NCBI RefSeq assembly: GCF_003664255.1
Contig: NZ_RCCV01000001.1
Span: 3,844,001 to 3,908,000 of the forward strand
Direction: 5' to 3'
Source: Micromonospora sp. M71_S20
GTDB taxonomy: Bacteria; Actinomycetota; Actinomycetes; Mycobacteriales; Micromonosporaceae
DNA: 64,000 nucleotides
A program made the position numbers and the translations under genes. The notes under the pieces are model-generated. The model did no database searches and was not told the origin of the DNA. It saw only the letters and a list, made by a program, of their open reading frames with translations. Within the stretch, counting starts at the first letter, position 1. Every line of letters begins with the position of its first letter. Shown in pieces: positions 1 through 22,617 of the stretch.

Positions 1-777
1 CGGGCCGCCGAGATCCGCGACTTCGTACGCCAGGCGCTGCGCGCGCTCGACGGCGTGCTGCGCGACGAGCCGGGCGGGTCCGGTGGCTTCACCGCCGATG
101 TGAGCGGCACCCCGGCTGGCCTCCGTGACGCGCTCGCCCCGGTGCTCGGCGGCGACGCCGTCGAGGCGGGCCGCCCGGTCCCGTTCCGGGCCACGGCGGC
201 CGTCGCGCGCGGCGAGGCCGCCCTGGTCCGCACCGACCCGGCGGTGGTTGCCCTCGCCGGGTACGTCCTCAACGCCGCCCTCGACGACCAGGTCAGCGGC
301 CCGCGCCCGGCCCGCCGCTGCGGCGTCATCCGCACCCGGGCCGTCACCGGCCGCACCACACTGCTGCTGGTCCGCTACCGCTTCCACCTCACCCTGCCGT
401 CCCGCACCGGGACGCGGCAGCTCGTCGCCGAGGACGCCCGGCTGCTCGCCTTCGCCGGCGCGCCCGCGAGCGCCACCTGGCTGCCCACCCAGGACGCGCT
501 GAAGCTGCTCGACGCGACCGCCGACGAGAACACCGACCCGGACTTCGGCGAGCGCACCATGAGCCGGATCCTCGACGGCCTGCCCGAAGTCACCGATCAC
601 CTCGAGGCGTACGGCGAGGATCTGGCCGCCGAACTTCTCGCCTCGCACCGCCGGGTGCGCAGCGCCTCCGGCGAGATCGTCCGCGGCCTCACCGTCACCG
701 CGCAGAAGCCCGCCGACGTCCTCGGCGCCTACGTCTACCTGCCCGCTTCCACCCCCGCCGCCGGAGGCCACGCCTGA
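1..777 (+). CDS. C-terminal part of an SNF2/RapA-type helicase (5' end outside window)
   Basis: The frame is open from the first base, so the gene begins upstream; 258 codons are visible. None of the helicase core motifs lie in this part. The end is an alpha/beta accessory region of the kind that closes large SNF2/HepA-like helicases in restriction loci, finishing in AYVYLP. The stop codon overlaps the ATG of the next gene (TGATG at 775-779), so the two are translationally coupled. A large SNF2 helicase directly followed by a 1,300-residue Eco57I-like adenine methyltransferase is the drmD-drmMI order of class 1 DISARM phage defence. That assignment is an inference from gene order and size, because drmA, drmB and drmC are not in view. 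It could also be another helicase/methyltransferase pair. Confidence 0.6.
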   Translation, partial: RAAEIRDFVRQALRALDGVLRDEPGGSGGFTADVSGTPAGLRDALAPVLGGDAVEAGRPVPFRATAAVARGEAALVRTDPAVVALAGYVLNAALDDQVSGPRPARRCGVIRTRAVTGRTTLLLVRYRFHLTLPSRTGTRQLVAEDARLLAFAGAPASATWLPTQDALKLLDATADENTDPDFGERTMSRILDGLPEVTDHLEAYGEDLAAELLASHRRVRSASGEIVRGLTVTAQKPADVLGAYVYLPASTPAAGGHA

Positions 778-3700
778 TGTCCGCCACCGCCCGCAACCAG
801 GTCTTCTCCGCCGTCCACACGATCGGCGGGCTGATCCCGGCCGACATGCTGGTCCGGATCGCCGAGGGTAAGGATGTCAGCGGCGCCAAGCCCGCCGACT
901 ACCGGGTGATCGGCTCCCGCTCGGTGCGCGACGACGCCGAACGACACTGGGACTATCTCAAGTCGGTCTGGAAGGAGCTGCGCGACCGGCTCCCGGTCGC
1001 CCCGGAGGCCGAGGCCCCCGCCGACGCGACTGGCCTGGCGGTCACCCAGTGGCTGGAGCCCCTCTTCGGAGAGGGGCTGGGATTTGGTCGGCTGACCGCG
1101 CTCGGCGCCACCGGCATCACCTCGGATGACGGTGCCAAGACGTTCGCCATTAGCCACCGCTGGAACCACGTGCCGATCCATTTGGCCCCTTGGAATGCGG
1201 CGCTGGACAAGCGGCCTGCCGGCGCGGGCAGCGTGCCGCCGCAGTCGCTGGTGCAGGAGCTGCTGAACAGGTCCGAGGCACACCTGTGGGGTGTGCTCAC
1301 CAACGGCCGGCAGCTGCGGCTGCTGCGCGACTCCAGCGCGCTCGCCACCGCCGCGTACGTCGAGTTCGACCTGGAGGCGATCTTCGACGGCGAGCTGTTC
1401 AGCGAGTTCGTGCTGCTGTATCGGCTGCTGCACGTCTCCCGCTTCGAGGTCGCCGAGGGCGCGGCGCCGTCGACCTGCTGGCTGGAGAAGTGGCGCACTG
1501 AGGCGATCGAGACCGGTGTCCGGGCACTCGAATACCATCGCGAGGCGGTGAAGAACGCCATCATCGCGCTCGGCACCGGGTTCCTCCGGCATCCTGCGAA
1601 CGGCGACTTGCGGCGCACCCTTGACGTCAATAGCTACCACGCCGCCCTGCTGCGTCTCGTGTACCGGCTAATCTTTCTCTTCGTCGCCGAGGACCGGGAT
1701 GCTCTGCACCCACCTGGCACGACGGAGCAGACCCGGGAGCGGTATGCAAAGTACTTTTCCTCCGCTCGGCTGCGTCGGCAAGCCCTCCGGCGTCGGGGCA
1801 CCTCCCACAGCGACCTCTATCAGTCTCTCCGGATCGTCCTCGACGCACTCGGCAGCGAGGAGGGCCGGCCGGAGCTAGGACTGCCCGGCCTCGGGGGGCT
1901 CTTCGACGACACCGACGCCGACAAGCCGCTGAAGGACCGGTCGATCGCCAACGCCGACCTGCTGGAAGCGGTGCGTTACCTGGCTCGGGTCCGCGACGTT
2001 GGGTCTGGCCGTTGGCGCCCTACGGACTACCGCAACATGGGTGCGGAGGAGTTGGGCTCCATCTACGAGTCGCTGCTGGAGTTGGTGCCCAAGCACCAGG
2101 CGACCGATAGCACCTTCGACCTGGTCGACCGCGCGGGCAACAACCGCAAGAAGACCGGCTCGTACTACACCCCTAGCTCACTGATCGAGGCGCTGATCGA
2201 CTCGACGCTCGACCCGGTCCTTGACGACGCGCAGAAGCGGGGGGAGGCGAAGGCGACCGCTGCGGGCGAGCCAGACCCTTCGCGCTACGTCATTGAAGAG
2301 CTGCTAGCACTCACTGTCTGCGATCCCGCCTGCGGTTCCGGTCACTTCCTGGTCGCCGCAGCACGCCGTATCGCGAAGCGGGTCGCCTCCGTCCGGGAGC
2401 GTAACCCGGAACCGACGGTCGACGCCGTCGGCGACGCCCTCCACGAGGTCGTCCGTCGGTGCGTGTACGGCGTCGACCTCAACCCGATGGCGGTCGAACT
2501 CGCCAAGGTGTCGCTGTGGCTCGAAGCCCTGAAGCCCGGGCGACCGCTCGGTTTCCTGAACGCGCAGATCAAGCACGGCAACGGGCTGATCGGGGCGAGG
2601 CCGGCGCTGTTGCGCGACGGCATCCCGAGCAAGGCATTCAAACCGGTGGAGGGCGACGACGCGACCTTCGCAAGAGCGTTGGAACGGCGTAACGAGCATG
2701 AACGGCAGGAGCATCCCGGGTTGTGGAAACTCGGCGTGGATGCGAGCGTCACAAACACCGGCTTCGCCGCTGATCTGAACCGGATCGTCGAGGTGCCGAC
2801 CCGCACCCTGCGCGACGTGCACTGGCAGGAAGACGCCTACCGGACCTGGGTGACGTCTCCGGCCTACGAGCATGCCAAGTTTGTGAGTGACGCCTGGTGT
2901 GCAGCGTTCATGTGGCACAAGAGCAGCAAGCTGCCCGCAATCACACACGAGGTGTTCCGCAACCTGCAAGCTGGGGCGAAGCTGCCCGAGGCGGTCCGCG
3001 GCGAGGTTGAGCGGCTCAGCGAGGAGTACCGCTTCTTCCACTGGCACCTGGAGTTCCCCACCGTCTTCGTCGTGCCGCAGGACAGCGTGGATGTTGACGT
3101 CGACCCAGCGACCGGTTGGGCGGGTGGCTTCTCGTGCGTGCTTGGCAACCCACCATGGGACAAGGTCGACTTCGAGGACAAGAAATACTTCAGCGTGGTC
3201 GACCCGGCCATCGCCGCGATCTCCGGCGCGGCACGGCGCAATCGGATCAGCGAATGGGTTAAGGAGAACCCGGAAGCCGCCAGAGACTACTGGGCTGAAC
3301 GCCGCAAGATCAAATCGACGTTCCACTTCGCGGGCGACTCCGGAGCGTTCCCGCTATGCGCCAAGGGCCTTACCGTCAGAGGCGTTACCATGCTTCAGAC
3401 CGACCAGCTCTTCGCCGAAATCTTTACCCTTATCTGTTCACCTAAGGGCAGCGTCGGGTGCATCATCCCTACCGCGATTGCGACGAGCGCGGGGGCGCAA
3501 CACCTCTTTGGCGATCTCGCTAAGCGTGGTGCAATCACCTCTCTGCGCGCCTTTATCAATAGCAATCAGCTTTTCGTCGGCATTCACCTTGACGAGCGGT
3601 TTTGCCTGCTCTCGTTGGTTGGACGAGGACTTCGGGAGTCGAAGGCAAGTTTCGCATTCTTCCTCGAAGATCCGGTCGACCTTGATGACCCTGGCCGCAT

Positions 3701-4903
3701 CTTCGAACTTACTCCCGAGGAGATCGCTTTAATCAGCCCAAACACGGGAAACATTCCGATTTTCCGGTCCCGCCGCGATGCCGAACTCACTGCTGGGATC
3801 TACCGCCGAATCCCTGTGCTGCAGAACGAGCTCCAGAGCGAGGATAATGCTTGGCGCATCGACTTCGTCCCAACCCCCTTCCACATGACCGACGACTCCG
3901 ACCTCTTCCGTGAAAGAGAGCGACTGATTGCGGAAGGGTGGGAACTGGTCGGGAACGTATTTACCCGGAATGGAGAGAGGATGCTGCCTCTATATGAAGG
4001 GAAGATGGCTCACCTTTTCGATCATCGCTGGAACTCCTACTTTGGAACAGGCAACGAGGATCGCAGGCGTCTGACTCTGACTGAGAAGCAGGATCCTTCA
4101 GCGGTGGCCTACCCGCGCTACTGGATTGCGGAAAACGGGCTCATTCCCACAACCCGGAGGGGAAGGCAGGTCGAGATCCCGGGAGTCGCCCTACGCTTGG
4201 CTCAGTTAGGATGGGATCGCGACTGGCTTTGTGGCTGGCGAGATGTTACTAATGCAACCAACGAGCGGACCTCAATCTGCTCCTTCATTCCGCGCACGGC
4301 AGTTGGACATAAGTTCCCCTTGATGCTGCCGCGCGTCTCCCCGGTCCTTGCCGCAGCGCTCATCGCTACTCAGAGTTCCTTGGCCTTTGACTATGTAAGC
4401 CGGCAGAAGATCGGCAAGACGAACATGGGGCTCTTTATCTGGAAGCAGCTACCCGTCCCTGCGCCAGCAGCGCTCGAACTGCATACTCCGTTTGTAACGC
4501 CGCGGGTAATCGAGCTCGTCTACACCACCTACGACATGGCGGGGCTTGCTTGCGACCTCGGCGACACTGGCGCTCCCTTAAATGGGGCGAGGACCGCCGC
4601 GCCCAGATTCGCGCAGAACTGGATGCGTACTTCTTCCACCTTTATGGCATTCGTCGCGACGATGTGGACTACATACTGGAAAGGTTTCAGTCCGACTCGG
4701 GCGGCGGACTCAAGAACAACGATATCGCTAAATACGGCACGTACCGGACCAAGGAACTGGTCCTTGCCGAGTACGACCGGATGGCCGCTGCCGGCGTTAG
4801 CCTGACCATGCCGCTCATCGACGGCGAGAACTACACCTCCACCCTCTCCCCGCCCCCGGGTAAGGGCCCCCGCCACCCTTCCGTGTCTACCGATAGTCGC
4901 TAA
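777..4903 (+). pseudogene. Eco57I-like N6-adenine DNA methyltransferase, frameshifted near the 3' end
   Basis: The protein would be about 1,375 residues. Motif I (DPACGSGHFL) is near residue 515 and the catalytic motif IV (NPPWDKV) near residue 790, so it is an adenine-N6 methyltransferase of the large Eco57I/PglX/DrmMI kind with a target-recognition region in the last third. Reading frame 777-4805 turns to nonsense after codon 1,266: the family-like C-terminus (LKWGEDRRAQIRAELDAYFF onward, to position 4903) lies in the -1 frame. The join is at the CCC of 4575-4577, where one extra C would restore the frame, so one base appears lost. The total length of 4,127 nt is also one short of a multiple of three. 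The stop at 4901-4903 is formed together with the first base of an inserted IS. Catalytic motifs are upstream of the lesion, so residual activity is possible. A sequencing error in the C run is the main alternative. Confidence 0.8.
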
Positions 4904-6130: not shown

Positions 6131-6436
6131 ATGGGTAGGCGGTGGAAGTGGTTCTTGCGGCCGGGGAGGGTCGCGGTTGACCTGGTCGGGCAGGTCGTAC
6201 CGGATGGCGACGTGCGGGGGCGCGGCGGTCGGCCGGGCGCACCTGACGTCGTACCCGATGGGTGGGTGACGTCGCGATGCGACGGCGCGGTCGTGTACGA
6301 GTGGCCCGAGCGGCGGCGGGCGGCTCCGACGCGGAACCGGCGCGCGGACCGCTACGACCCGCGGCCGGCCGGCGAGCGGACCGCCGGGCAGTGCCGGGGG
6401 AGCGGCCCGGCGGAGGGGCGGGGATCGGATGGCTGA
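6131..6436 (+). CDS. Hypothetical protein upstream of DUF5753 regulator
   Basis: A 101-residue basic, arginine-rich protein with no recognised domain. It is favoured as real because an SD-like GGGGAGGGGG precedes the ATG and because its end overlaps the next start in the form ATGGCTGA, the same coupling seen between the next two genes. It would be the first gene of a three-gene operon under the divergent promoter region. The C-terminal half is low in complexity, so a non-coding leader is the main alternative. Confidence 0.45.
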   Translation: MGRRWKWFLRPGRVAVDLVGQVVPDGDVRGRGGRPGAPDVVPDGWVTSRCDGAVVYEWPERRRAAPTRNRRADRYDPRPAGERTAGQCRGSGPAEGRGSDG

Positions 6437-7310
6437 GGACATGGGGTCGACGGTGCCGCGCCGGCAGCTCGGGCGCGCGCTGCGGGAGCTGCGGACCCAG
6501 GCGCGGATGACGCTGGACGGCGCGGCGGACGCGTTGCAGTGCAGCCGCCAGAAGATGTGGCGGATCGAGACGGGCCTCGGCGCGGTGCGCGGCCTCGACG
6601 TGCGGGCCATGTGCGAGCTGTACAGCGCGACCCCCGAGCTGACCGCCGTGCTGACCGGCCTGGCCCGCGAGACGAAGGCGAAGGGCTGGTGGCACGCGTA
6701 CGGCGACACCATCCCCGACTGGTTCGAGCTGTACGTCGGCCTGGAGGCCGCCGCCGGCCGGCTACGGGAGCACGACGACACCCTGATTCCCGGGCTTCTG
6801 CAAACCCCTGGCTACGCGGCCGGCGTCTACCGGCACCGGTCACGCATGGCCGACGACGAGTGGGAGCGGCTGGTCGAGGTGCGGCAGCGACGGCAGGCGC
6901 TCCTGCGGCGACGGCTGCCCCCGCCGCCCCGGCTCGACGTCATGCTTTCCGAGGCGGTGCTGCTGCGGGTCGTCGGCGGCCCAGCGGCGATGGCGGAACA
7001 GCTCCGGCATTTGGCGGAAGTTGGCCGGCTGCCCCACGTCTCCATCCGGGTCGTGCCGCTGGCCGCCGGCCTGCACTTCGGTGCGGTCGCCGGATCCTTC
7101 GTGATTCTCGATTTCCCGCTCGGCAGTCGCGTCGAACCCGAGCCGTCGGTGGTCTACAGCGAGTCGTTGACCGGCGCGCTCTACCTCGACCGGAAGGAGG
7201 AGTTGGCCGCCTACGAGCGGATCTGGGCGAGCCTCGACTCGCTGGCCCTCGATGAGGGGCAGTCCCGACAGTTGATTATCAAGATTTCCGAGGAGGTCCA
7301 CCATGGCTGA
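6429..7310 (+). CDS. Helix-turn-helix regulator with DUF5753 domain
   Basis: The 293-residue protein has an XRE-type helix-turn-helix near residues 10-65 (LRELRTQARMTLDGAADALQ, then QKMWRIE) followed by a DUF5753 domain (LIPGLLQTPGYA, VYSESLTGALYLDRKEEL). This architecture is one of the most abundant regulator types in Streptomyces and Micromonospora. It is usually encoded next to a small DUF397 protein, as here, and the pair is thought to act as a regulator with its antagonist (BldB/WhiJ-like logic). The start overlaps the preceding gene by 8 bp and the end overlaps the DUF397 gene by 8 bp. A short copy of its GALYLDRKEEL segment recurs at about 9896-9930. Confidence 0.93.
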   Translation: MAEDMGSTVPRRQLGRALRELRTQARMTLDGAADALQCSRQKMWRIETGLGAVRGLDVRAMCELYSATPELTAVLTGLARETKAKGWWHAYGDTIPDWFELYVGLEAAAGRLREHDDTLIPGLLQTPGYAAGVYRHRSRMADDEWERLVEVRQRRQALLRRRLPPPPRLDVMLSEAVLLRVVGGPAAMAEQLRHLAEVGRLPHVSIRVVPLAAGLHFGAVAGSFVILDFPLGSRVEPEPSVVYSESLTGALYLDRKEELAAYERIWASLDSLALDEGQSRQLIIKISEEVHHG

Positions 7311-7521: not shown

Positions 7522-8961
7522 TCAGCGGCGCCGGTCGGTGACGCGGATGGTGAGGACTGTGCCGTCTTGGCCGAGCGACACCACCCCGTCGCGCGGCCGG
7601 GACCGCGACCACCGGCGGCGGATCAGCGGTGCCGCCCGGAGGTAGGCCGCGACCTGGCCGTCCGCGAGGTGGCGGTACAGGCTGCTCTCCACGCCCCGAA
7701 ACACCTCCAAAGCCTTGCCGTTCTGCAGCGGCGCGCGATAGAGGGTGCCTTCCGCACACAGGTCGTCCGCCACGGGCTGCGATGTGGCGGTGCTCTCTGC
7801 CCACGACGGGTCCAGCTCGAACAGCCTCAGTTGGCCGGTGTGGGGTTCCTCGTCCCCACGTTGCCGTGGCGTTGCGTAATGACGGGCGGTGGCGTTATCG
7901 CCGGCGAACAGCAGTGCGGTGGCCGCCACCGCACGGGTCAGTATCTGTGTGAACCAGCCACGCCGTTCCTCGGGCACGTCGAACACCTCGGGCGCTCCAA
8001 GCGGCAGATCGTCCGTCGGGCCCGGGCCGGTGGTGCCGGGTGGCCCGGCGTCCTCAACCGCCGCCGGCCAGGTCCGTGCCTCGTCGGCCGTGGCGGGCCG
8101 GGTCCGCCAGTGGTGGTCCTCCGGGCGGCCGTGCAGCAACTCGTCGAAGTCGTCGGGGCCGCCGTCCCACAGCTCGCCATCCCCCGGCGGATCGAGGATG
8201 TACGACGTGATCTGACGCCCGGCCAGGCAGGACGCGACCATCAGTGCCGGCGGGCGGCGGCCACCGACGTTCAGCGTTCTCACCTGCACGGCGGCCCGGG
8301 CGAGTTGACCGTAGGCGAAGCTTGGCGGCTGATGGGTGCCCTTGCACTCCAGCACCACGATCTTCATCCGGCTGCGACGACCCGAGCTGTGGTGCCCCAC
8401 CAGGAAGTAGTCCGGGCGCTTCTGGCTCTTGGAGGTGCGTTCCACCGCGCCCGCCCCGTCGATGAACCCTGCCTTCAGCGCCACCTCCGCGTCGACCGCG
8501 AAGAAGGTCCACTGGCGGTATTGCCGCTGCAGCACCTTCTTTGCCACCACCAGGGCCAGGCCGATGCCCAACTGCTCGGACTGGGTCACCTTGTGGTGGT
8601 ACACGAGGCTCTGGGCTGACGGAGTGAGCCCGAGCATGCCGCGTTGCCGGGTCAGCGTCGCGCAGTAGCGGACGTGCGCCCAGTGCCGGGCCACCTGTGC
8701 CAGCGGCGACGCGGTCAACAGCGTGGTCGCCACCCCGAGCTCGTGCAGCACCTGCGCCGGACTGGTTCCCACCGTCGGGCCGATCGCCACCGCGACGGGA
8801 GCCTTGCCGTACCGGTACGCGTCGTTCTTCACGGCGGCGTCCTTGGCGTACTTCTCGACGGCGTCGACAAGGTGGGGAGAGGATTCGACGACCAGTCTGG
8901 ACGGTTGGCTGAGGGAACGTACGAGGGATTCGATGTCCATGCCCACCCCCGGTGTTGACAT
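7522..8961 (-). CDS. Unrecognised protein with a PD-(D/E)xK-like nuclease motif
   Basis: About 479 residues. The central segment RPDYFLVG followed some 20 residues later by KIVVLECKGTH fits the PD-x(n)-ExK signature of restriction-endonuclease-like folds, with hydrophobic strands around both halves. No other domain was recognised. The N-terminal third is alpha-helical and the C-terminal third is variable. The start at 8961 (MSTPGVGMDIESL) follows a strong promoter; the internal ATG at 8940 has a GGGGGTGGG ribosome site and is equally possible. The longer frame to 9102 runs through the promoter and is unlikely. It lies downstream of the 9057-9746 gene and is divergent from the GmrSD-like gene, so a restriction role is suspected but not shown. 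Confidence 0.6.
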   Translation of the reverse strand: MSTPGVGMDIESLVRSLSQPSRLVVESSPHLVDAVEKYAKDAAVKNDAYRYGKAPVAVAIGPTVGTSPAQVLHELGVATTLLTASPLAQVARHWAHVRYCATLTRQRGMLGLTPSAQSLVYHHKVTQSEQLGIGLALVVAKKVLQRQYRQWTFFAVDAEVALKAGFIDGAGAVERTSKSQKRPDYFLVGHHSSGRRSRMKIVVLECKGTHQPPSFAYGQLARAAVQVRTLNVGGRRPPALMVASCLAGRQITSYILDPPGDGELWDGGPDDFDELLHGRPEDHHWRTRPATADEARTWPAAVEDAGPPGTTGPGPTDDLPLGAPEVFDVPEERRGWFTQILTRAVAATALLFAGDNATARHYATPRQRGDEEPHTGQLRLFELDPSWAESTATSQPVADDLCAEGTLYRAPLQNGKALEVFRGVESSLYRHLADGQVAAYLRAAPLIRRRWSRSRPRDGVVSLGQDGTVLTIRVTDRRR

Positions 8962-8982
8962 ACCGCATGGGTCAGGACACCT

Positions 8983-9011
8983 AGAGTGATCGAGGGCTGC
9001 CAGAGTGTCAA
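8983..9011 (-). promoter_or_regulatory. Promoter for the nuclease-like gene
   Basis: On the minus strand a perfect TTGACA (9011-9006) is followed by a 17-bp spacer and CACTCT (8988-8983). This predicts a start of transcription about 15-20 bp upstream of the 8961 start codon, so the gene has its own promoter even though the 9057-9746 gene lies just upstream on the same strand. Confidence 0.55.
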
Positions 9012-9056
9012 TGGAACGACGAACGTGCTCAAGTCCTGCTTGTCGACCGCGGCGCT

Positions 9057-9746
9057 TTAGGAGCAGCGGCACAAACCCAACGACCCCACGACCACTCCGC
9101 ACGCCGGGCAGGCGTCCGGGCGAGTCCGTGGGCTGGGCAGCGGCCGGGTGGGTATCGACGGAGTGAGGCTTGCGGGGCGAGGCGGTGCAGCGAGTGCGGC
9201 GCGCACTTCGTCCTCGGTCACGGCAGGCCAGCCCGACTTCCGGAGCTTCTGCGTCACCCTACGAATGCTCAGCCTTGGGTGCTTGCCCTGAGCCGCCTTC
9301 GCGGCGTCCGCGAGGCGCTGTGACCTCAGCGGGTTCTTCTTGGCCGGGGCGGGACGCCGCTGTGGCTGTCGACGATTCAAGCCTTGCAGCACCTGCCCGA
9401 CCTGCTCTGCGGTGACATCCGGCCAACCCGAGCTCCGCAGATGGCGGGCCAAGGTGCTGTCCTTCGCACCCGGCATCGTGCTCAACAGCTTGCGCGCGGC
9501 TGTGGCAAGGGAGGCCACGGGATGGCCGGCCACCTTGCCAAGTCGGGACTTGCAGGGCATGCACTGACAGGAGGTTCCCGGACGGTGCGGCGCTCCGCCC
9601 GTCCCGGACCGCCGCGCTTCGCCTCCGGCACCGCCTGGCGAGTGCGCAGGCGACGCGGTTCCCAGGTCGTCGAGCCAGGAGTCGGGTGTGCGATCCGGGA
9701 TATCGTCGTTTTCCCAATCGCGGCCGGGATCCGATGAGCCTCGCAT
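9057..9746 (-). CDS. Hypothetical protein with two tandem helical repeats and a C-terminal zinc ribbon-like end
   Basis: The 229-residue protein begins acidic and disordered. It then has CQCMPC near residue 60 and two copies of a 40-residue unit: one around residues 80-122 containing RHLRSSGWPDVTAEQVGQVL, the other around 146-187 containing QKLRKSGWPAVTEDEVRAAL. The last 20 residues carry CPAC and CRC, a pattern able to bind zinc. The repeats look like small helical DNA-binding modules, and the zinc end supports a nucleic-acid role, but no family is recognised. It is upstream of the nuclease-like gene on the same strand. The start has no clear ribosome site, and the frame stays open about 150 bp further upstream without another start codon. 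Confidence 0.55.
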   Translation of the reverse strand: MRGSSDPGRDWENDDIPDRTPDSWLDDLGTASPAHSPGGAGGEARRSGTGGAPHRPGTSCQCMPCKSRLGKVAGHPVASLATAARKLLSTMPGAKDSTLARHLRSSGWPDVTAEQVGQVLQGLNRRQPQRRPAPAKKNPLRSQRLADAAKAAQGKHPRLSIRRVTQKLRKSGWPAVTEDEVRAALAAPPRPASLTPSIPTRPLPSPRTRPDACPACGVVVGSLGLCRCS

Positions 9747-10094: not shown

Positions 10095-12629
10095 GTGGTT
10101 GCGGCACGCGAGACGACGCTGCAGGAGTTGCTGGAGGGCGCGAAGCAGTACCAGGTGCCGCTCTACCAGCGCACATACTCGTGGACGACGTTGCAGTTGC
10201 AGCGCCTCTGGGACGACATCCTGAAGCTGGCCGACGACCGGACCCATGACCCGAAAACGACACACTTCATCGGCTCCCTCGTGCTGGCCCCAAGCCCCAA
10301 CAATGGGCCGACCGGCGTGGCCGAGTATCTGGTGGTGGACGGGCAGCAGCGCCTCACCACCCTGACCATCCTGCTCTGCGCCATCCGCGACCACCGCGCG
10401 CAGCACGAGGGCCCTGTGCATCGCGAGCGGCTCAACCAGCAGTACCTGGTCAACCCGTGGAAGTCGGAGCCGCAGCGGTTGAAGCTGGTCCCCACGCAGG
10501 CCGACCGGGACGCCTACCTAGCATGCCTGGACTCCACCCCGCAGGCCGGGGGCGCCGACCCGGTGGGCGCGGCGTACCGGTTCTTCGTCGCGCAGTTGGC
10601 CGCCGCCGACGATCCGCTCGACATCGAACGCATCGAGAACGCCGTCATCTCCGGCCTGGCCCTGGTGTCGGTCACCGCCCAGGCCGGCGACAACGTGTAC
10701 CGGATCTTCGAGTCGCTCAACAACACCGGCCTCCGCCTCACCCAGGCCGACCTGCTGCGCAACTACCTGTTCATGCGGCTGCCCACCCGGGGCGAGGCCG
10801 TCTACTCGTCCCTGTGGCTGCCGCTGCAGAAGCAGTTGTCGTCGGACGAGCTGGTCCTGCTCTTCTGGCTCGACCTGGTCCACCGTGACCCGCGGGTCAA
10901 GCAGACCGACGTCTACTCGGTACAGCAGGCCCGGCTGAACCGGCTGCGGTCGGAGGAGGAGATCGAGGTGGAGGTGCAGCGGTTCAGCCGCCTCGGCGCG
11001 CTGCTCCGGGTCATCCTCCACCCCGGCGAGGAGCAGGACCCGGGCGTACGGCGGCGACTGGAGCGACTGAGCGCTTGGGGCACGACCACCGTCTACCCCC
11101 TGCTGCTGCATCTGCTCGACCGCCGCCAGCAGGGCACCGCAACCTCGGAGCAGATCGCCGCAGCGATGCTGTACGTGGAGAGCTTCTTCGTCCGACGCCT
11201 GCTGACCGGTCGTCCCACCAACAACCTCAATCGAATCCTGCTCGCCGTGGTCACCGAAATGGGCCAGGACTTGCCGGTGGACGAGGCGGTACGGACCTAC
11301 CTTTCGACGGGGCGTAAGTACTTCTCAAACGACGCCAGCGTGCGGGGTGCAGTCCGCTCCATCCCGTTCTACCTCAACGGCCGCGCACACCAACGCAAGC
11401 TGATCCTCCAGTGGCTGGAGGAGTCGTACGGCAGCAAGGAGCCCGTCGCGCTGGACAAGGCGACCATCGAGCACGTGCTGCCGCAGACCCCCACGACGGA
11501 GTGGCGGCAGATGCTCGCCGCCGACCTCGGACCGGAGGAGAATTTCCGCGAGGCGCACGAGGCCCTGGTCCACACGCTGGGGAACCTGACCCTCAGCGGC
11601 TACAACTCGGAGCTGGGCAACGACGGCTTCCCGGTAAAGCGCGTCAAGTTGAAGCAGAGCGGGATCGTGCTCAACCAGAAAATCGCCGCGCATGGCCGGT
11701 GGGGGCGCCCCGAGATCCACGCCCGCGCCGACGCCCTCGCGGAGCGCATCATCTCCATCTGGCCGGGCCCGACGGAGCAGGCGGCTGAGCAGTCGGAAGA
11801 GCCGTGGGAGGTGATGACCAAGGCTCTCGCCGAGCTGCCGGCCGGCTCGTGGACCACGTACGGCGACCTCGCCGCGCTGATCGGTAGCCACCCGGTGCCG
11901 GTCGGGGCTCGCCTCGCGACCCACCCGGCTCCGAACGCCCACCGCGTGTTGCAGGTCGAGGGCACCGTCTCGCCGAACTTCCGTTGGCTCGACCCGAACC
12001 GCACGGACGACCCACGGGACATCCTGCGCGCCGAGGGCGTGGAGTTCGACCAGTACGGCCGCGCCGATCAGGCGCAGCGCATCGGCACCGAGGAGCTGGC
12101 GCAGCTCGCCGGCCTCACGCCGGAGGACCTGCCCGAGCAGCTGCCTGGGCCGCGCTCCGGCGACGACCGTACCTACAGCGAGCGGTTCATCGAACAGGTG
12201 ACCGCTCTGCAGGGTTCGGCCGTCGCCACCGCCACGCTCGTCGTACTGGAAGTCTGGGTCTCGATGGGCGGCACCCTGCTCTACGGCACCGGCGGGGAAA
12301 CCTCTTGCTTCCTCATGGCACGCGGCAAGGAGCACGAGCTGGGCAACATCTGGCCGGCGGCGATCTATCCGAGCGGCAAGTTCGAGGTCGTGTTCCAGCA
12401 CCTGAGCGTGCGCCCGCCGTTCGACGACGTCACCCTGCGCGAGGAGCTGCGCCAGCGCTTTAACCAGCTGCCGGGCGTCGACATCGCCGCCGCCAAGATC
12501 GCCCTACGTCCAGGCTTCCCCTTGGCGGTCCTCGCGGACGCCGACGCCCGCGAGGCGCTGCTCGACCATCTCCACTGGTTCTACCAGGTGGCCCAAATGG
12601 CTTCTTCGGACAACCTGGCGACCGCCTAG
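10095..12629 (+). CDS. GmrSD-like DUF262/DUF1524 type IV restriction protein fused to an alkyltransferase-like domain
   Basis: 844 residues. The N-terminal DUF262 (GmrS) NTPase domain shows QVPLYQRTYSW and VVDGQQRLTTL. The DUF1524 (GmrD) HNH nuclease domain shows IEHVLPQ and, 50 residues on, LGNLTLSGYNSELGN. This single-chain arrangement is typical of type IV enzymes that cut glycosylated-hydroxymethylcytosine DNA. After about residue 570 comes an alkyltransferase-like module: AGSWTTYGDLAALIG, then NAHRVLQVEG and RAEGVEF. The PCHR active-site cysteine of true MGMT is replaced by NAHR, so it should bind and flip modified bases rather than repair them. The last 180 residues are an unrecognised domain (GTGGETSCFLMARG, NIWPAAIYPSGKFEVVF). 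The GTG start has a GGGGGA site. It heads a rightward cluster with the next helicase. Confidence 0.85.
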   Translation: MVAARETTLQELLEGAKQYQVPLYQRTYSWTTLQLQRLWDDILKLADDRTHDPKTTHFIGSLVLAPSPNNGPTGVAEYLVVDGQQRLTTLTILLCAIRDHRAQHEGPVHRERLNQQYLVNPWKSEPQRLKLVPTQADRDAYLACLDSTPQAGGADPVGAAYRFFVAQLAAADDPLDIERIENAVISGLALVSVTAQAGDNVYRIFESLNNTGLRLTQADLLRNYLFMRLPTRGEAVYSSLWLPLQKQLSSDELVLLFWLDLVHRDPRVKQTDVYSVQQARLNRLRSEEEIEVEVQRFSRLGALLRVILHPGEEQDPGVRRRLERLSAWGTTTVYPLLLHLLDRRQQGTATSEQIAAAMLYVESFFVRRLLTGRPTNNLNRILLAVVTEMGQDLPVDEAVRTYLSTGRKYFSNDASVRGAVRSIPFYLNGRAHQRKLILQWLEESYGSKEPVALDKATIEHVLPQTPTTEWRQMLAADLGPEENFREAHEALVHTLGNLTLSGYNSELGNDGFPVKRVKLKQSGIVLNQKIAAHGRWGRPEIHARADALAERIISIWPGPTEQAAEQSEEPWEVMTKALAELPAGSWTTYGDLAALIGSHPVPVGARLATHPAPNAHRVLQVEGTVSPNFRWLDPNRTDDPRDILRAEGVEFDQYGRADQAQRIGTEELAQLAGLTPEDLPEQLPGPRSGDDRTYSERFIEQVTALQGSAVATATLVVLEVWVSMGGTLLYGTGGETSCFLMARGKEHELGNIWPAAIYPSGKFEVVFQHLSVRPPFDDVTLREELRQRFNQLPGVDIAAAKIALRPGFPLAVLADADAREALLDHLHWFYQVAQMASSDNLATA

Positions 12630-12699: not shown

Positions 12700-14283
12700 A
12701 TGCAGCCGGGACCCTTGTGGGTGCCACTATGGCAGTTGCTGGCGGCGATGCCAGGTCAGAACAAGCGGCAACTGCTCGCCGGGCTGCAGCGCATGGGTCT
12801 GCACGGGCTTACCACGACCGACGTCAACCGGACGTTGTACGCCAACACAACGACCTTCGATCATGACGGCGCCACACCGCCGCGTTGGCGACTCACTGCA
12901 GCCGCATCATGGCACGGGGGAGCGGTTCCTGCCGCTGTGCCGCCGACGCTGCCCCGGTGTTACGTCGGCAAGGAGCCGCGAGCCTGGCAGATTGAGGCGT
13001 TGGCCGCATGGCGAGCTCACAAACGGCAAGGCGTGGTGGAGGCAGTCACCGGGACGGGGAAGACAACCGTCGGTGTGCTGGCCGCTGCGGCCGCGGTGGA
13101 TGCGGGCGAGAGGGTGTTGGTGCTCGTGCCCAGTCGTGAGCTGCTCGACCAGTGGTATGACGTGTTGCAACGTGATCTTCACGGTGTTCTCGTGGGTCGA
13201 CACGGGGACGGCCACGAGGACACGCTCGAAGACCATTCCATCGTGGGCGCCATCGTGAACTCTGCTGCCAGATATCAGATGCTGCCGCTCGGCATACCGG
13301 GCCTGCTGATTGCCGACGAGGTGCATCGCTATGGGACACCCTTCTTCGCGCGTGCTCTCGAGCCGCACTTCGATGGCCGGCTCGGGCTGACCGCGACGTA
13401 CGAGCGTTCTGATGATGGCTTGATCGACCACCTGGAACCCTTCTTCGGCGGCGTGGTAGCCGACTGCAGCTACGACCGCGGGCTGGCCGACGAGATCTTG
13501 GCGCCCTTCCGTGTCGCCTTCGTGGGAGTCGACTTCACTCCAGACGAACAGAAGGCCCACGACGAGTACGACGACCGCGTGAGAAGTCTCCGGCGCCGCC
13601 TGATCGTCGACCACGGCTGTCCGACGGAACCGTTCGGTGAGTTCATGGCGATGGTCAACCACATTAGCGCTGGCGGTGAAGGGGACTCGCGTGCGGCCTG
13701 GGACGCCCGCAAGTACCTGAACGCTTTCAACAAACGGCGTGAGGTCCTGGCCGAGAGCCGGAACAAGCAGGAAGCGCTTGCCTTCTTGGCGCCGGTCTTG
13801 GCCACCGCGGACCGGGGACTTGTGTTCGGCCAAACCATGCGGGGTGCGGAACACGCGGCGGCGGCGCTGCGGGCCAGCGGTGTGCAGGCGATGGAGATCA
13901 CCAGCGGTATGAACGCCCTGAAACGCAAGCAGCGGTTGGCGGCGTTCAAGGACGGGCAGGCAAAGGTGCTGGCCGCGCCTCGACTCTTGGACGAAGGGGT
14001 CGACGTCCCACAGGCGGATGTCGGTGTCATCGTTGCGGGAAGCCGAAGCAAGCTTCAGATGATTCAGCGCATGGGCCGCGTAATCCGCCCGAAAGCCGAC
14101 CGGCGCCCGGCGACATTCATCATTCTGTACGTCAGAGGCACAGCGGAGGATCCCGACACCGGCGCACACGAAGGCTTTCTCGATCAGATCATCGATGTGG
14201 CCCAGGAGATCGAACGGTTTGACCACTTAACGTCTGGCAGGGACCTGCTCGCCTGGCACCTTTCGGGCAGGCTGCCGAAGTGA
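12700..14283 (+). CDS. SF2 DEAD/DEAH-type helicase
   Basis: The 527-residue helicase has an N-terminal 60-residue winged-helix-like part, then core motifs in order: Q-like region (EPRAWQIEALAAW), Walker A (AVTGTGKTTVGV, near residue 110), motif II (LIADEVHR, near 205), motif III (LTATY), and in the second RecA lobe GLVFGQT, LLDEGVDVP and motif VI (QMIQRMGRVIRPK). It resembles the compact XPB/RadD-like and type III restriction-associated helicases. It follows the GmrSD-like gene by 70 bp on the same strand. The next downstream reading frame is only the first 23 codons of a RelE-UvrD helicase, so its former partner seems to have been cut away. Confidence 0.88.
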   Translation: MQPGPLWVPLWQLLAAMPGQNKRQLLAGLQRMGLHGLTTTDVNRTLYANTTTFDHDGATPPRWRLTAAASWHGGAVPAAVPPTLPRCYVGKEPRAWQIEALAAWRAHKRQGVVEAVTGTGKTTVGVLAAAAAVDAGERVLVLVPSRELLDQWYDVLQRDLHGVLVGRHGDGHEDTLEDHSIVGAIVNSAARYQMLPLGIPGLLIADEVHRYGTPFFARALEPHFDGRLGLTATYERSDDGLIDHLEPFFGGVVADCSYDRGLADEILAPFRVAFVGVDFTPDEQKAHDEYDDRVRSLRRRLIVDHGCPTEPFGEFMAMVNHISAGGEGDSRAAWDARKYLNAFNKRREVLAESRNKQEALAFLAPVLATADRGLVFGQTMRGAEHAAAALRASGVQAMEITSGMNALKRKQRLAAFKDGQAKVLAAPRLLDEGVDVPQADVGVIVAGSRSKLQMIQRMGRVIRPKADRRPATFIILYVRGTAEDPDTGAHEGFLDQIIDVAQEIERFDHLTSGRDLLAWHLSGRLPK

Positions 14284-14387: not shown

Positions 14388-14457
14388 GTGCCGCAGCCCG
14401 CCTTCATTTACAGCTTCTGGCAGAGCTACGACGTCCTGAAAAAGCCGGTCAAGGCCC
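14388..14457 (+). pseudogene. Beheaded start of a RelE-UvrD-type helicase gene
   Basis: From the GTG at 14388 the translation VPQPAFIYSFWQSYDVLKKP continues to VKA and matches the start of the intact gene at 19416 (VPQLALANSFWQSYDILEKP, VKA) at 17 of 23 residues, with about 85% DNA identity over 70 bp. Homology stops abruptly after position 14457. This is a truncated relative, not just a repeat, because the start codon and first domain boundary are kept. It sits 104 bp after the SF2 helicase, suggesting that a full RelE-UvrD gene once followed it. Confidence 0.75.
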
Positions 14458-17721: not shown

Positions 17722-18368
17722 CAGCATCTCGCCGAATGCGCCTCGCTTTGGCCATCAGCCGGTTTGCCTCGGCCGCGTTGCCAGTCTCCGATGCCCGTTC
17801 GCGCTACCGAGAACAGTGGGAGGCCGACATACGCGGCGCCGCCGACATAGGGCTGTCGCCGCTGCGGCTCGCTCTCGGCACTGCAGTGGCAGCCCTCCAA
17901 CTTGTCGCTACCATCAGGACGGGGACAGCAGTGCTTGCGTCAGGGAACATTGCGCTGGCCATCCGGGCAGCCGGTGCGCCCCGCGTACGTACCGGCCTTG
18001 CAGTGACGCAGTTGGGATTCGGCGGTCTATATGCGGTCGTGCTGGTGTTATACGCCGTCAGCCGGATCCGGTTGGGACTCGGCCACCATGAACTCACCCA
18101 CGAAATGCACGACCCCAAGGACCTCGTGCCTTTCGGTCTCTCCCTGCTCAACCCCTTCACCTGGCTGTTCATGACCTCGCAGCTGTACATAATGCTTAAT
18201 GGCTGGGTGCTCGGAGCTGTCCTCGCTGCAGGGTCACTCGTCCACGCGTTTACCGGCAACGACCGTCGGCGGCGGCTCTCCGTGACCGCGACGGCGGTCA
18301 GCGCCGTTGTGCTGGCCATCGCTCTCAGTGGCTTCGGCTGGGACATATTCGTTTGGGTTAGGGATTAG
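17718..18368 (+). CDS. Multi-pass membrane protein in PadR operon
   Basis: The 216-residue protein has about four hydrophobic segments (around residues 50-70, 90-112, 140-165 and 190-212) and a basic N-terminal segment (YREQWEADIRG), which resembles the cytosolic tail of PadR-linked permease-type proteins. The substrate is unknown. It is co-translated with PadR. Its last codons lie at the edge of an IS5 element: the stop TAG (18366-18368) contains the TA flanking the IS, and the uninterrupted sequence would also have read TAG, so the protein seems unchanged. Confidence 0.7.
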   Translation: MTASRRMRLALAISRFASAALPVSDARSRYREQWEADIRGAADIGLSPLRLALGTAVAALQLVATIRTGTAVLASGNIALAIRAAGAPRVRTGLAVTQLGFGGLYAVVLVLYAVSRIRLGLGHHELTHEMHDPKDLVPFGLSLLNPFTWLFMTSQLYIMLNGWVLGAVLAAGSLVHAFTGNDRRRRLSVTATAVSAVVLAIALSGFGWDIFVWVRD

Positions 18369-19277
18369 GGCGAGCGAGATCGCGTAGCCATATCTTCATC
18401 GTGGCGACGTCAACCGTAGCCTGGTACATGAACTCTCTCTTGTCGTAGCGGGTGGCCACGGCTCGGAACTGCTTGAGCTTGTTGATCGCCCGCTCGACGA
18501 CATTGCGCTGTTTGTACAGCTCACGGTCGAATGCGGGCGGGCGCCCGCCCCGGCTGCCCTTGGCCGCCCGAGCGGCGACCTGGTCCTTCTTCTCGGGAAT
18601 CACCGCCGCGATTCTGCGTCGGCGCAGCTCAGCCCGGATCTTCTTGTTCGTGTACGCCTTGTCGGCAAGCAGCCGGCCCGGCCGGGTCCGCGGCCGACCC
18701 AACCGTCGCCGGACGCGGATACCGTCCATGACCATGGCGAACCCGACGCTGTCGTGGCGCTGCCCGGCGGTGAGGGTCCGGCTGACCGGCCGGCACCGGC
18801 GGTCTGCAGCCAGATGCAGCTTCGTGCTCAGCCCGCCACGGGACCGACCAAGCGCCTCACGATCACCCGATTCGCCCGACACCGGCCGCCCCCTTTGCCT
18901 TCGCTGGCCTGCTCGGACAGCTCCCTGGGCAGGTCGCGGCGAGCACCGGCCGCGTGCTGGTGCGCCCGGACCACGGTCGAGTCCAAGCCCAGCACCCAGT
19001 CCTCGCCCGCCTCGGCATCGCAGTCGGTGCGCAGCGCGTCGCAGATCCTCGCCCAGGTACCGTCGAGGGCCCAGCGACGCTTGCGCTGGTAGACCGTCTT
19101 CCATGGGCCGAACCGGGCGGGCAGGTCCCGCCAGGTGATCCCGGTCCGTTCCCGGAACAAGATCCCCGAGATCGTCATACGGTGATCACGCCACCGCCCG
19201 CCCCGGAGTGGATCCGTCGGCAGCAGCGGTCTCAGCAACTCCCACTCGGCGTCAGTGAGCTCAAATCGTCCAGACAC
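18358..19277 (-). CDS. IS5-family transposase expressed by frameshifting
   Basis: Two overlapping frames together make one transposase of about 305 residues. Frame one (19277-18828) holds the N-terminal helix-turn-helix/DUF4096-like part ([45 protein letters not shown] with the first catalytic Asp). Frame two (to 18358) holds [32 protein letters not shown] and the [20 protein letters not shown] segment with the final Glu. The switch is a -1 shift at AAAGGGGGC (minus strand, + positions 18888-18896), a run suited to ribosomal slippage, as in other actinobacterial IS5 elements. Simple mutation cannot be ruled out. Confidence 0.8.
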
Positions 19278-19415: not shown

Positions 19416-21563
19416 GTGCCGCAGCTCGCCTTGGCCAACAGCTTCTGGCAGAGCTACGACATCCTGGAGAAGCCGGTGAAGGCCGGCGTACGCAAGGCGA
19501 TGGAGAAGTTCCAGCAGCTCACCGTCGCCGAGCTGCACGCCGACAAGGGCCTGCACCTGGAGTCGGTGAACAACGCGCGGGACCCGCGGATGCGGACCAT
19601 CCGGATCTCCGACTTCTGGCGCGGGGTGGTTTTGGCGCCCGACGACGGCAGCGACACGTTCCTGCTGCTCAACGTCGTGCCACACGACGACGCGTACACA
19701 TGGGCCGCGAAGCGGCTCTACACGGTGAACACGGCGACGCGGGCCTTGGAGGTCCGCAACGTCGTCGCCATCGAGCAGCTCACTCCGGCGCTGGAGAAGG
19801 CTGCGGCGGAGGCGCCGAGCCTGCTGTTCGCCCGCTACTCCGACACTGTGCTGCGGCACCTCGGCATCGACGACCAGGTGCTGCGGGCAGTACGCACGAT
19901 CATCGACAAGCGGCAGTTGGACGCGTTCAGCACGTTGCTGCCCGAGGACCAGTTCGAGGTGCTGCAGTACCTCGCCGAGGGCTTCACGCCCGACGAGGTC
20001 TATCGCGACGTCGTGGCCGAGCGTCGGCCGGTGGACGCAACGCCAGAGCCGAGCGGGAGCCTGTCCGTGGCGATCGCCAACACCGCCAACCGCATCACCC
20101 TGGTGACCCGGCCGGATGAGCTCGCCGAGATCCTCGACAAGCCCTTCGCCGCCTGGCGGGTGTTCCTGCACCCGTCGCAGCGGCGGGTCGCGTACCGGGT
20201 CTCCTACAACGGGCCCGCTCAGGTGACGGGTGGGCCGGGCACCGGCAAGACGGTGGTGGCGCTGCACCGGGTCAAGCACCTGCTCTCCCGCACGCCCGAC
20301 AGCCGGGTGCTGCTCACCACGTACACCAATGCCCTGGCCGCGACCCTGCGGGAGAACCTGGCGCTGCTCCTCGACGACGAGGAGCAGCTGGCGCGGGTGG
20401 AGGTCACCACGGTGAACGCCTTCGCGCACCGCGCAGCGCGTGCCCTCGCCGGACGGGTGCCGACCCCGATCGGCGACGCGGACGAGCGGCAGGTCTGGCG
20501 GCGGGTGTGCCGCAGGCTGAACATGCCCTGGACCGAGCAGTTCCTCGCCCAGGAGTTCCGGCATGTGATCCTCGCCCACAACGTGCAGAGCCGGGAGGAG
20601 TACCGCGCGGCCAGCCGGCGGGGGAGAGGGTCGGCGCTCGGCCCGCGGCAGCGCGACCGGGTATGGGACGCCGTGGACATGTTCCAGAAGGAGCTGTCCG
20701 CCGCCGGTACCACCACCCACCTGCAGATCTGCGCGCGGGCGGCGCGGCTGCTCGACGGCGCCGACCTCACCGACCACGGGTACGACCACGTCGTGGTCGA
20801 CGAGGCGCAGGACCTGCATCCCGCGCAGTGGCGGGTGCTGCGGGCCGCGGTGGCGCCCGGCCCGGACGACCTCTTCATCACCGGCGATCCGCACCAGCGG
20901 ATCTACGACTCCCGGGTCTCGCTGAACGCCCTCGGCATCTTCGTCACTGGGCGCAGCAGCCGGCTGCGGGTAAACTACCGCAGCACCGAGGAGATCCTCT
21001 CCTGGTCCACCGGGGTGCTCGTTGGCTCCCGGATCGAGGACCTCGGTGGCGACGGTGACGACAGCCTCGCCGGCTACCGGTCGCTGCTGCACGGCAAGCG
21101 GCCGCACGCCGCCGGATACCCGACGAGTCAGGCCGAGAACACGGCGCTCGTGGAGCGGGTGGCGGAGTGGTTGGAGCAGGGCTTGGCGGCGAGCGAGATC
21201 GCGGTGTGCGCTCGGTTCAACACCACTCTGAGCGACGTGCAGGAGGCATTGACCGCCGCCGGGATTCCTTCTGTGCGGGTTCGCGATCAGCCGGGCGTGG
21301 ACGTGGACGGGGTGCGGCTCGCCACCCTGCACGCGATGAAGGGGCTGGAGTTCCGCTGTGTGGCGGTAATCGGTGTAACGGCGCGGTCGGTGCCGTTCGC
21401 GAAGGAGGTCACGCCGGCCGAGGTGGATCCGTTGCAGCACGAGAGCGACCTGCTCCGGGAGCGTTGCCTGCTGTTCGTCGCGAGCACCCGGGCGCGGGAG
21501 GCGCTGCACGTGTCATGGAGTGGACAGCCCAGCCCGTTCCTGGCGTTCTCCTCTGGCAGTTAG
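19416..21563 (+). CDS. UvrD/Rep-type helicase with N-terminal RelE-like domain
   Basis: 715 residues. Residues 1-110 resemble a RelE/ParE toxin fold (MRTIRISDFWRGVVLA, LLLNVVPHDDAYTWA), followed by an all-helical linker and an SF1 helicase: Walker A VTGGPGTGKTVVALHR (near 270), motif II VVVDEAQDLHPAQW (near 463), GDPHQRIYDSR (motif III), LATLHAMKGLEFR (motif V) and LLFVASTRAREAL (motif VI). Known RelE-UvrD fusions occur in mobile and defence contexts; whether the toxin-like part cuts RNA is untested. The GTG start follows CAGGAGG, and a -10-like TAGGGT is at 19371. A truncated relative of its 5' end is at 14388. Confidence 0.88.
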   Translation: MPQLALANSFWQSYDILEKPVKAGVRKAMEKFQQLTVAELHADKGLHLESVNNARDPRMRTIRISDFWRGVVLAPDDGSDTFLLLNVVPHDDAYTWAAKRLYTVNTATRALEVRNVVAIEQLTPALEKAAAEAPSLLFARYSDTVLRHLGIDDQVLRAVRTIIDKRQLDAFSTLLPEDQFEVLQYLAEGFTPDEVYRDVVAERRPVDATPEPSGSLSVAIANTANRITLVTRPDELAEILDKPFAAWRVFLHPSQRRVAYRVSYNGPAQVTGGPGTGKTVVALHRVKHLLSRTPDSRVLLTTYTNALAATLRENLALLLDDEEQLARVEVTTVNAFAHRAARALAGRVPTPIGDADERQVWRRVCRRLNMPWTEQFLAQEFRHVILAHNVQSREEYRAASRRGRGSALGPRQRDRVWDAVDMFQKELSAAGTTTHLQICARAARLLDGADLTDHGYDHVVVDEAQDLHPAQWRVLRAAVAPGPDDLFITGDPHQRIYDSRVSLNALGIFVTGRSSRLRVNYRSTEEILSWSTGVLVGSRIEDLGGDGDDSLAGYRSLLHGKRPHAAGYPTSQAENTALVERVAEWLEQGLAASEIAVCARFNTTLSDVQEALTAAGIPSVRVRDQPGVDVDGVRLATLHAMKGLEFRCVAVIGVTARSVPFAKEVTPAEVDPLQHESDLLRERCLLFVASTRAREALHVSWSGQPSPFLAFSSGS

Positions 21564-21638: not shown

Positions 21639-22430
21639 TCACATCGACGTGGTCATTCCTTTCCGGGTCAGCTCCCATACGCCACGATGCCCGGTTCGCT
21701 TGATCAGTCCGTCGTCGACCATGGCCTTACGCTCCCAACGAGCGGCGTTCCGCCACCGCACTTCGTCCCCATCGACAACGCCATAGTCGCCCTCGAGGAA
21801 GACGTGCTCCATGCGGCGTTCGAGCTCCGCGAGCACTTTGTCCACTTCCTGCCGGCCGCCGGCCTCCTGGAGAATCGCGAGTATGTACGGCCGAAATGCC
21901 TTCTGCGGTGTCTGGCCGCGCTTCCGTCCTGCGGAACGCTGAGCCGGCACCTCCGATGACGGCTCGTCAGATGCGGGGCCGCTGGTTGATGCACCCGGCT
22001 GGTCATGCTCCGCCCAGATGTCGCTGAGAGACTTCCCGTCGCGCTGCCGCTGCCAAGCCGTCCAACCGTTGACCTCATAACCAGCGAGATGCCGGGCGGC
22101 GCTCGAGGGAGTGCCGTGCAGGGAGCCGTCCCGCAGGCGTAGCCGACCGTCGTTCGTGAGCCAGGCCTCGTGTCTCTTCCCCTGATTCCGCCGGTTCCAT
22201 ACGAGGCACTCGTCTACGCGGAGGATGCCGTCGGCGAGCAGCCGAGCGAGTTTGGTCGACGATGCTGGCTTCATGTGTGGACTCCTTGCTGGGCTTTCTA
22301 CGGGGCCAGCGACGCCTCCGTTCAGGTTCAAGAGTCGTCGCAGCACTGTGTTGGGGGTGTCGACGAACGCTTCCGCCTTGGACTGCAGTAGGGCGTACAC
22401 CTCGTCGTCTACCCGGATGGTCGGAGCCAT
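21639..22430 (-). CDS. RHH-RAMA-Mrr_N protein (modified-DNA-reading regulator)
   Basis: 263 residues from the ATG at 22430, which has an AAAGG site; the longer frame to 22628 is rejected because it crosses the divergent promoter. Residues 1-45 form a ribbon-helix-helix (APTIRVDDEVYALLQSKAEA). Residues about 65-140 fit the RAMA fold (LARLLADGILRVDECLVW, DGRLRLRDGSLHGTPSSAAR), found next to restriction and methyltransferase domains and thought to read modified DNA. After a linker, the C-terminus (PYILAILQEAGGRQEVDKVL to GVWELTRKG) is the Mrr N-terminal winged helix, without the Mrr nuclease domain. It is probably a regulator or specificity factor and is divergent from the OGG-fold gene. Confidence 0.75.
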   Translation of the reverse strand: MAPTIRVDDEVYALLQSKAEAFVDTPNTVLRRLLNLNGGVAGPVESPARSPHMKPASSTKLARLLADGILRVDECLVWNRRNQGKRHEAWLTNDGRLRLRDGSLHGTPSSAARHLAGYEVNGWTAWQRQRDGKSLSDIWAEHDQPGASTSGPASDEPSSEVPAQRSAGRKRGQTPQKAFRPYILAILQEAGGRQEVDKVLAELERRMEHVFLEGDYGVVDGDEVRWRNAARWERKAMVDDGLIKRTGHRGVWELTRKGMTTSM

Positions 22431-22525
22431 CTGCTGCCTTTCTGCCTCGACGTACCGGAGATGACAGTGTTGCAGACAGATGAAAAGCTTGGAAGATGCC
22501 GGTCGCCTAAGCGACGGAGGGCGGA

Positions 22526-22540
22526 CTGTCGACAGTCGAC
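22526..22540. promoter_or_regulatory. CTGTCGACAG palindrome with overlapping GTCGAC repeat
   Basis: CTGTCGACAG (22526-22535) is a perfect 10-bp palindrome and is followed immediately by a second TCGAC, giving GTCGACAGTCGAC. It lies midway between the divergent RHH-RAMA and OGG-fold starts. Ribbon-helix-helix dimers bind tandem short dyads like this, so it is a candidate operator for the RHH protein. Confidence 0.45.
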
Positions 22541-22617
22541 AAGGTCGTCGGAGCATGTCCGATCGGCGATTCGCCCCGCCTGTCTGTCTGTAAACCCGTA
22601 CCTCGGTCGGTGGGAAC

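Follow-up and report, generated by a model that had tools for sequence, protein, structure and literature searches.

A GmrSD-type nuclease carrying a remodelled repair-protein fold

We wondered how a restriction nuclease might benefit from a domain with the fold of a DNA repair protein when that domain lacks its catalytic cysteine. The question is raised by a gene of Micromonospora sp. M71_S20 located at 10095..12629 (+ strand) of a stretch of 64,000 nucleotides (contig NZ_RCCV01000001.1, positions 3,844,001 to 3,908,000), here called the window, whose numbering is used throughout. The gene is an intact open reading frame of 844 amino acids with a GTG start and encodes a GmrSD-type nuclease, followed by a module of the alkylguanine-DNA alkyltransferase (AGT)/alkyltransferase-like (ATL) fold and a C-terminal domain. 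A first-pass annotation of the window had proposed that the ATL part reads modified bases by flipping bulky modified guanines, extending type IV restriction to alkyl- or deazaguanine-like phage modifications. Based on the analysis presented here, we favour, with a probability of roughly 58%, a single-chain restriction nuclease of the GmrSD/BrxU/SspE/DndI kind that depends on nucleoside triphosphates (NTP), is probably modification-dependent (type IV-like) and carries a C-terminal DNA-reading cassette. The domains, the predicted folds, the losses within the module and the presence of the module on different nucleases are what the computation shows.

The GmrSD core is complete. The DUF262 (GmrSD_N) domain, a predicted NTPase of the ParB/Srx fold, spans residues 9-226 (10119..10772, +; Pfam E 2.9e-35) and contains the DGQQR motif at residues 82-86 (10338-10352, +). 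The DUF1524 (GmrSD_C) domain, a predicted HNH-type nuclease, spans residues 413-550 (11331..11744, +; Pfam E 4.5e-22). We aligned the window protein with 77 loci from a species scan and seven database proteins (alignment A1, 85 rows); of the 80 loci kept from the scan, L056 (in-frame stop) and L098 (broken frame) were excluded from all alignments and L021 from A1. P22, Y24, the following QR and DGQQR were kept in 84 of the 84 rows covering them, and H460, N497, N504 and N509 of DUF1524 were invariant (85/85). The protein thus has both features of the GmrSD family, a DUF262 domain with DGQQR and a DUF1524 domain with HNH-type residues. PDB entries 20yv and 20yw (‘DUF262 domain-containing protein’) match residues 10-96.

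BrxU, with a chain of 557 residues, could be aligned no further than residue 558, and BrxU and GmrSD type IV enzymes are not known to carry these C-terminal modules. Such enzymes read modified cytosine, according to the sections of the literature available to us. For the nearest solved structures, DndI and SspE, the alignment with the model stops at residues 560-565, and they have no counterpart of the module. Their proximity brought up a nuclease that distinguishes self from non-self through phosphorothioate marks of the host, as SspE or DndI do. A search of the host genome for DndC (TIGR03183) at E 1e-3 gave no match, the Ssp enzymes not having been searched separately; in the controls no genome scored above the cut-off and 5 of 14 gave weak matches. 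We therefore dropped phosphorothioate sensing as highly improbable.

The module has lost the cysteine and the arginine finger

The module occupies residues 571-655 (11805..12059, +). Pfam DNA_binding_1 matched residues 575-649 (E 3.6e-6, 27.2 bits at a cut-off of 27), a 103-residue piece containing the module scored 32.4 bits on its own, and the AGT/ATL fold spans residues 565-667. The fusion seen by the first-pass annotation is a real observation, and its assignment of segment 570-660 to this fold, the position behind the GmrSD core and the missing catalytic cysteine were all borne out. The P-C-H-R of AGTs is replaced by N-A-H-R at residues 614-617 (11934..11945, +). At position 615, where AGTs (MGMT/Ogt) carry their nucleophilic cysteine, 84 of the 85 aligned members have alanine and one has threonine. 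An AGT C-terminal fold without cysteine is what characterizes ATLs, and as in Atl1 and the Vibrio ATL the pocket tyrosine, arginine and glutamate are retained. Y589, the equivalent of the flipping tyrosine expected in an ATL, is tyrosine in 81 of 85 members and phenylalanine in four, while R617 is invariant (85/85). W586, Y589, H/Y616, R617, L619 and E647 form a strongly conserved, remodelled set of pocket-type residues.

The module differs from Atl1 and the Vibrio ATL in its fusion to a nuclease, its shortened active-site loop, the loss of the ATL proline and bulky pocket residue (P-W) and the absence of the arginine finger. Position 601, the finger site, is arginine in a single member (L088) and V, I, L, M or Q in 78 of 85, and a joint alignment places a deletion of two residues in the finger region. 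The finger is kept in all 22 non-fused AGT/ATL-type references (L001-L003, L108-L126) and missing from all 13 proteins of the sister architecture described below; it was read by eye in both sets, a search pattern having caught 17 of the 22 references and 11 of the 13 sister proteins, with the remainder found by eye. Three of the references (L108, L112, L126) are unfused AGT-fold proteins that retain the finger but not the cysteine, their P-C-H-R being replaced by N-P-H-R or N-P-A-R. Outside the reference set, L107 is a stand-alone cysteine-less protein with an arginine finger. L106, a member of 718 residues outside A1, has an arginine at the finger site and no tyrosine.

These losses bear directly on a canonical ATL-type reader, in which a bulky guanine with an O6 or deaza modification would be flipped into the pocket of the module. 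Such a reader would suit the fold, the tyrosine equivalent, the exchange of cysteine for alanine and the database (jgi) names of some members, ‘alkylated DNA nucleotide flippase Atl1’. However, the finger is gone from 84 of 85 members and from the sister proteins, the review PMC10779285 describes, in the part available to us, finger and tyrosine as conserved across AGTs and ATLs, and the host genome already encodes a separate PWHRV-type ATL with an arginine finger (L003). Apart from the Atl1-type names, nothing in this analysis tied the module to alkyl- or deazaguanine. We consider flipping of modified guanine in its canonical form unlikely; flipping with a hydrophobic or glutamine finger at position 601 is conceivable. 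What held of the proposed ATL base reader is the fold, the loss of cysteine, the placement and the notion of a DNA-reading add-on, but not guanine flipping.

That the finger has been lost along with the bulky residue of the pocket would also be expected of a generic DNA-affinity tail, in which module and C-terminal domain merely add affinity or placement and specificity resides in DUF262 as in SspE and DndI. In DndI, the DUF262 tyrosine Y25, together with P23 and Q26, is reported to sense phosphorothioate (PMC11662687, in the part available to us). In the present protein, P22, Y24 and Q25 are kept in every covering row of our alignment. They belong to a VPxYQR segment which we take to be a general motif of DUF262 domains, so that the presence of Y24 would not discriminate. 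Moreover, invariant R617, L619, E647 and W586 exceed the apparent needs of a plain tail. We regard this explanation as possible, if rather on the unlikely side.

A second conserved domain follows the module

The C-terminal domain (residues 697-835; 12183..12599, +) also occurs in PD-(D/E)XK-like proteins. By predicted structure only, it resembles the ‘double wing’ of the T4 MotA C-terminal domain and of YjbR-MmcQ proteins: Foldseek retrieved MotA with a probability of 0.87 and E 0.051, and a search of viral structures found a MotA at E 0.65 and a probability of 0.16 only. Profile comparison with YjbR (PF04237) gave an hhalign value of 0.3%, no better than controls, and YjbR homology was discarded for lack of a sequence signal. 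The domain was aligned in 63 sequences (A4), the others being omitted because of a missing C-terminal domain, long tails or number reduction. Judging from the model, it may bind DNA as a double wing. Another small module of about 75 residues, with a YWV..DG..WPVKQ motif, was seen at the C-terminus of the same GmrSD family, where it replaces the C-terminal domain in L096 and comes after it in L044 and L046.

The module occurs on different nucleases

Thirteen proteins were retrieved when the module of locus L104, which represents a second lineage, served as the query. Twelve are labelled GmrSD_C and RAMA, and 11 of these also GmrSD_N, with the module located behind RAMA (RAMA scores of 2.1e-17 in L104 and 5.3e-16 in P0124). 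In the thirteenth, P0134, the module comes after a region that we read by eye as PD-(D/E)XK (NucS_C at E 0.079 did not reach the cut-off) and after a RAMA-like stretch that Pfam did not score; because the open reading frame of P0134 opens with part of a phosphoesterase (E 6e-12), we are not certain where the protein truly starts. None of the 13 proteins has the cysteine (alanine in 12, glycine in one). GmrSD homologues with DUF4357 or DUF4268 as additional domains (PMC4619093) and, rarely, with EVE (PMC7641849) appear in the parts of these papers available to us. Together with the RAMA lineage and P0134, this makes the C-terminal slot of GmrSD proteins look like a reader slot, and RAMA between core and module, as well as DUF4357, DUF4268 and EVE on homologues, speaks for an added part that reads DNA. 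Our best reading of these architectures is a swappable DNA-reading cassette.

GmrSD homologues with PF01035 were already mentioned by Machnicka et al. in 2015 (PMC4619093). The first-pass annotation had named a common, described type IV architecture with another assigned function as a reason to give up its view; the fusion had indeed been described, but no function is assigned in the part of that paper available to us. The same part is silent on the missing cysteine and finger, the C-terminal domain, the RAMA sister lineage and the helicase neighbour, and holds no functional test. Among open-licence PubMed Central papers, PF01035 or methylguanine co-occurs with DUF262 or GmrSD only there. In the accessible part of the 2015 report we found neither the losses and the swapping of the module nor the sharing of the C-terminal domain with other proteins or the recurrent helicase.

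The family appears widespread but patchy in Actinomycetota

In a protein search, 7993 candidates were scored and 6272 kept. The best 120 of the 6272, the window protein included, share 67-100% identity; both GmrSD labels are present on every one of them, the PF01035 label on 115. As W571, G584 and W586 are kept in all 121 aligned rows (P0001 plus these 120), the five members without the label do have the module. Scanning 84,980 species, with one genome each, confirmed 108 relatives, of which 80 loci were kept, all with actinobacterial titles; the scan used patterns from the window protein and reaches close relatives only. Within Micromonospora, 13 of 61 genomes gave a match: ten at full length, two of 718 residues that align only to about residue 670-678, and one as a stretch with nothing but the C-terminal domain. 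A module profile run on 296 genomes of the phylum matched at 1e-8 in 25, five of which (the host's own genome included) have the module on a GmrSD protein; a sixth, L103, ends in an apparent GmrSD end, and the remainder are mostly ordinary AGT-type proteins. The family thus seems widespread, yet its occurrence is sparse and patchy in the manner typical of defence genes.

A UvrD-like helicase is a recurrent neighbour

Downstream of the nuclease gene lies a UvrD-like helicase of superfamily 1 (19416..21563, +; Pfam UvrD-helicase 2.5e-24), a recurrent neighbour in relatives and a possible partner. A 23-codon remnant of the N-terminus of this gene (14388..14456, +; tblastn 78% over 23 residues, E 1.8e-6) is situated 5 kb from the full copy, with a DDE transposase (18358-19104, -) in between, a trace of rearrangement. 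The helicase family lies within 10 kb of the nuclease gene in 45 of the 80 loci and within 300 bp in 28, open reading frames having been called mechanically for this count. In Micromonospora, it is within 10 kb at 10 of the 12 loci with a GmrSD part, and at four of them it follows on the same strand at a distance of no more than 133 bp. Overall, the helicase occurs 33 times (E 1e-60) in 28 of the 61 Micromonospora genomes.

In Gabija, a nuclease works with a UvrD helicase, and the present nuclease could somewhat similarly be one half of a two-gene system, cutting DNA that the helicase unwinds or along which it translocates; this would be compatible with the other readings. In line with such a pair, a Mantel test on the 28 pairs of adjacent genes shows correlated identity matrices of nuclease and helicase (r 0.886, reached in 0 of 2000 permutations), a correlation inseparable from shared descent. 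However, the relative orientation varies (12 upstream opposite, nine downstream same, seven downstream opposite), 35 of the 80 loci have no helicase within the stretch examined, and helicase copies in genomes without the nuclease gene adjoin other large genes. The variable orientation and the other neighbours make the helicase a shared companion, not a proven partner; an exclusive partnership was rejected, and we give the two-gene system a low probability. Neither ‘UvrD’ nor ‘helicase’ occurs in a paper on multidomain RelE/ParE toxins.

Other neighbours were also considered. The superfamily 2 helicase at 12700-14283 (PADLOC: PbeA-like) was rejected as operon partner with no relative in the 80 loci; of the 60 other Micromonospora genomes, one has a relative and lacks a GmrSD match. 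The genes at 7522-9102 and 9057-9746 were likewise not kept (0/80 loci). A relative of 7522-9102 is located directly upstream of the gene in L134, one of five later Micromonospora regions with the gene, and a looser kind of link is conceivable. An EAD2 match in L006 (E 0.096) fell below cut-off and was ignored, and the PADLOC labels Orf5 and HEC-06, being names only, were not used.

The window holds further defence-like genes. One encodes a DrmMI/type IIG-like methyltransferase of 1342 residues (777-4805, +; PADLOC 5.8e-62), and in L020, L029 and L032 closely related genes (51-68% identity) lie near members of the nuclease family. The gene at 21639-22628 (-) matches SeqA_N, RAMA (6.3e-18) and Mrr_N and may encode another reader of modified DNA; head to head with it, the starts overlapping by 11 bases, is an OGG-like putative 8-oxoguanine glycosylase (22618-23475, +; PF21790, 5.3e-48), unusual company in a defence-like region. 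HTH-DUF5753 regulators are numerous in these genomes, and the one at 6429-7310 (+) has relatives in 17 of the 80 loci and in 10 of 13 compared regions, the window included. Finally, 11 Streptomyces loci (L051, L052, L061, L065, L066, L070, L073, L074, L077, L082, L083) encode, on the strand of the GmrSD gene and no more than 522 bp upstream of it, a ParB/Srx-like protein of about 280-320 residues with a DGQHRL motif that was seen by eye in L051, where Pfam gave no match.

Discussion

We propose that the C-terminal 280 residues (560-844) form a cassette of the AGT/ATL-fold winged-helix module and the C-terminal domain, in which the module would have given up both alkyl transfer and flipping by an arginine finger, and kept a remodelled set of conserved pocket-type residues. 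The two conserved modules together probably recognise foreign DNA, and we infer that specificity resides in the cassette. It would dock the nuclease on foreign DNA, probably via a feature missing from host DNA, and gate cutting. To judge from the intact motifs and the homologues, DUF262 would bind and hydrolyse NTP; a foreign feature at the cassette or at DUF262 would switch this NTPase, as described for SspE and DndI in the available part of PMC11662687, and DUF1524 would then nick or cut the DNA. A bolder version appears doubtful: the fold of a repair protein would have been turned into a specificity module for restriction, its fingerless pocket and a groove-straddling double-wing domain enabling a GmrSD-type nuclease to detect hypermodified bases of phages, modified guanine included, that classic SRA, EVE and GmrSD readers miss, and unrelated restriction nucleases (GmrSD, GmrSD-RAMA, PD-(D/E)XK) would exchange the module among themselves.

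The range of phages stopped by a type IV enzyme is set by its reader of modified bases, and this nuclease family occurs in many genera of Actinomycetota (80 loci). The losses of cysteine, arginine finger and loop make the question of the reader directly testable. If the AGT-fold module is such a reader, restriction would gain one derived from a repair protein, in addition to SRA, EVE, sulfur-binding and other winged-helix sensors. This reader could be directed at a guanine or another hypermodification with few known readers. Even as a mere grip on DNA, the module would be a clear case of a repair domain recruited to defence.
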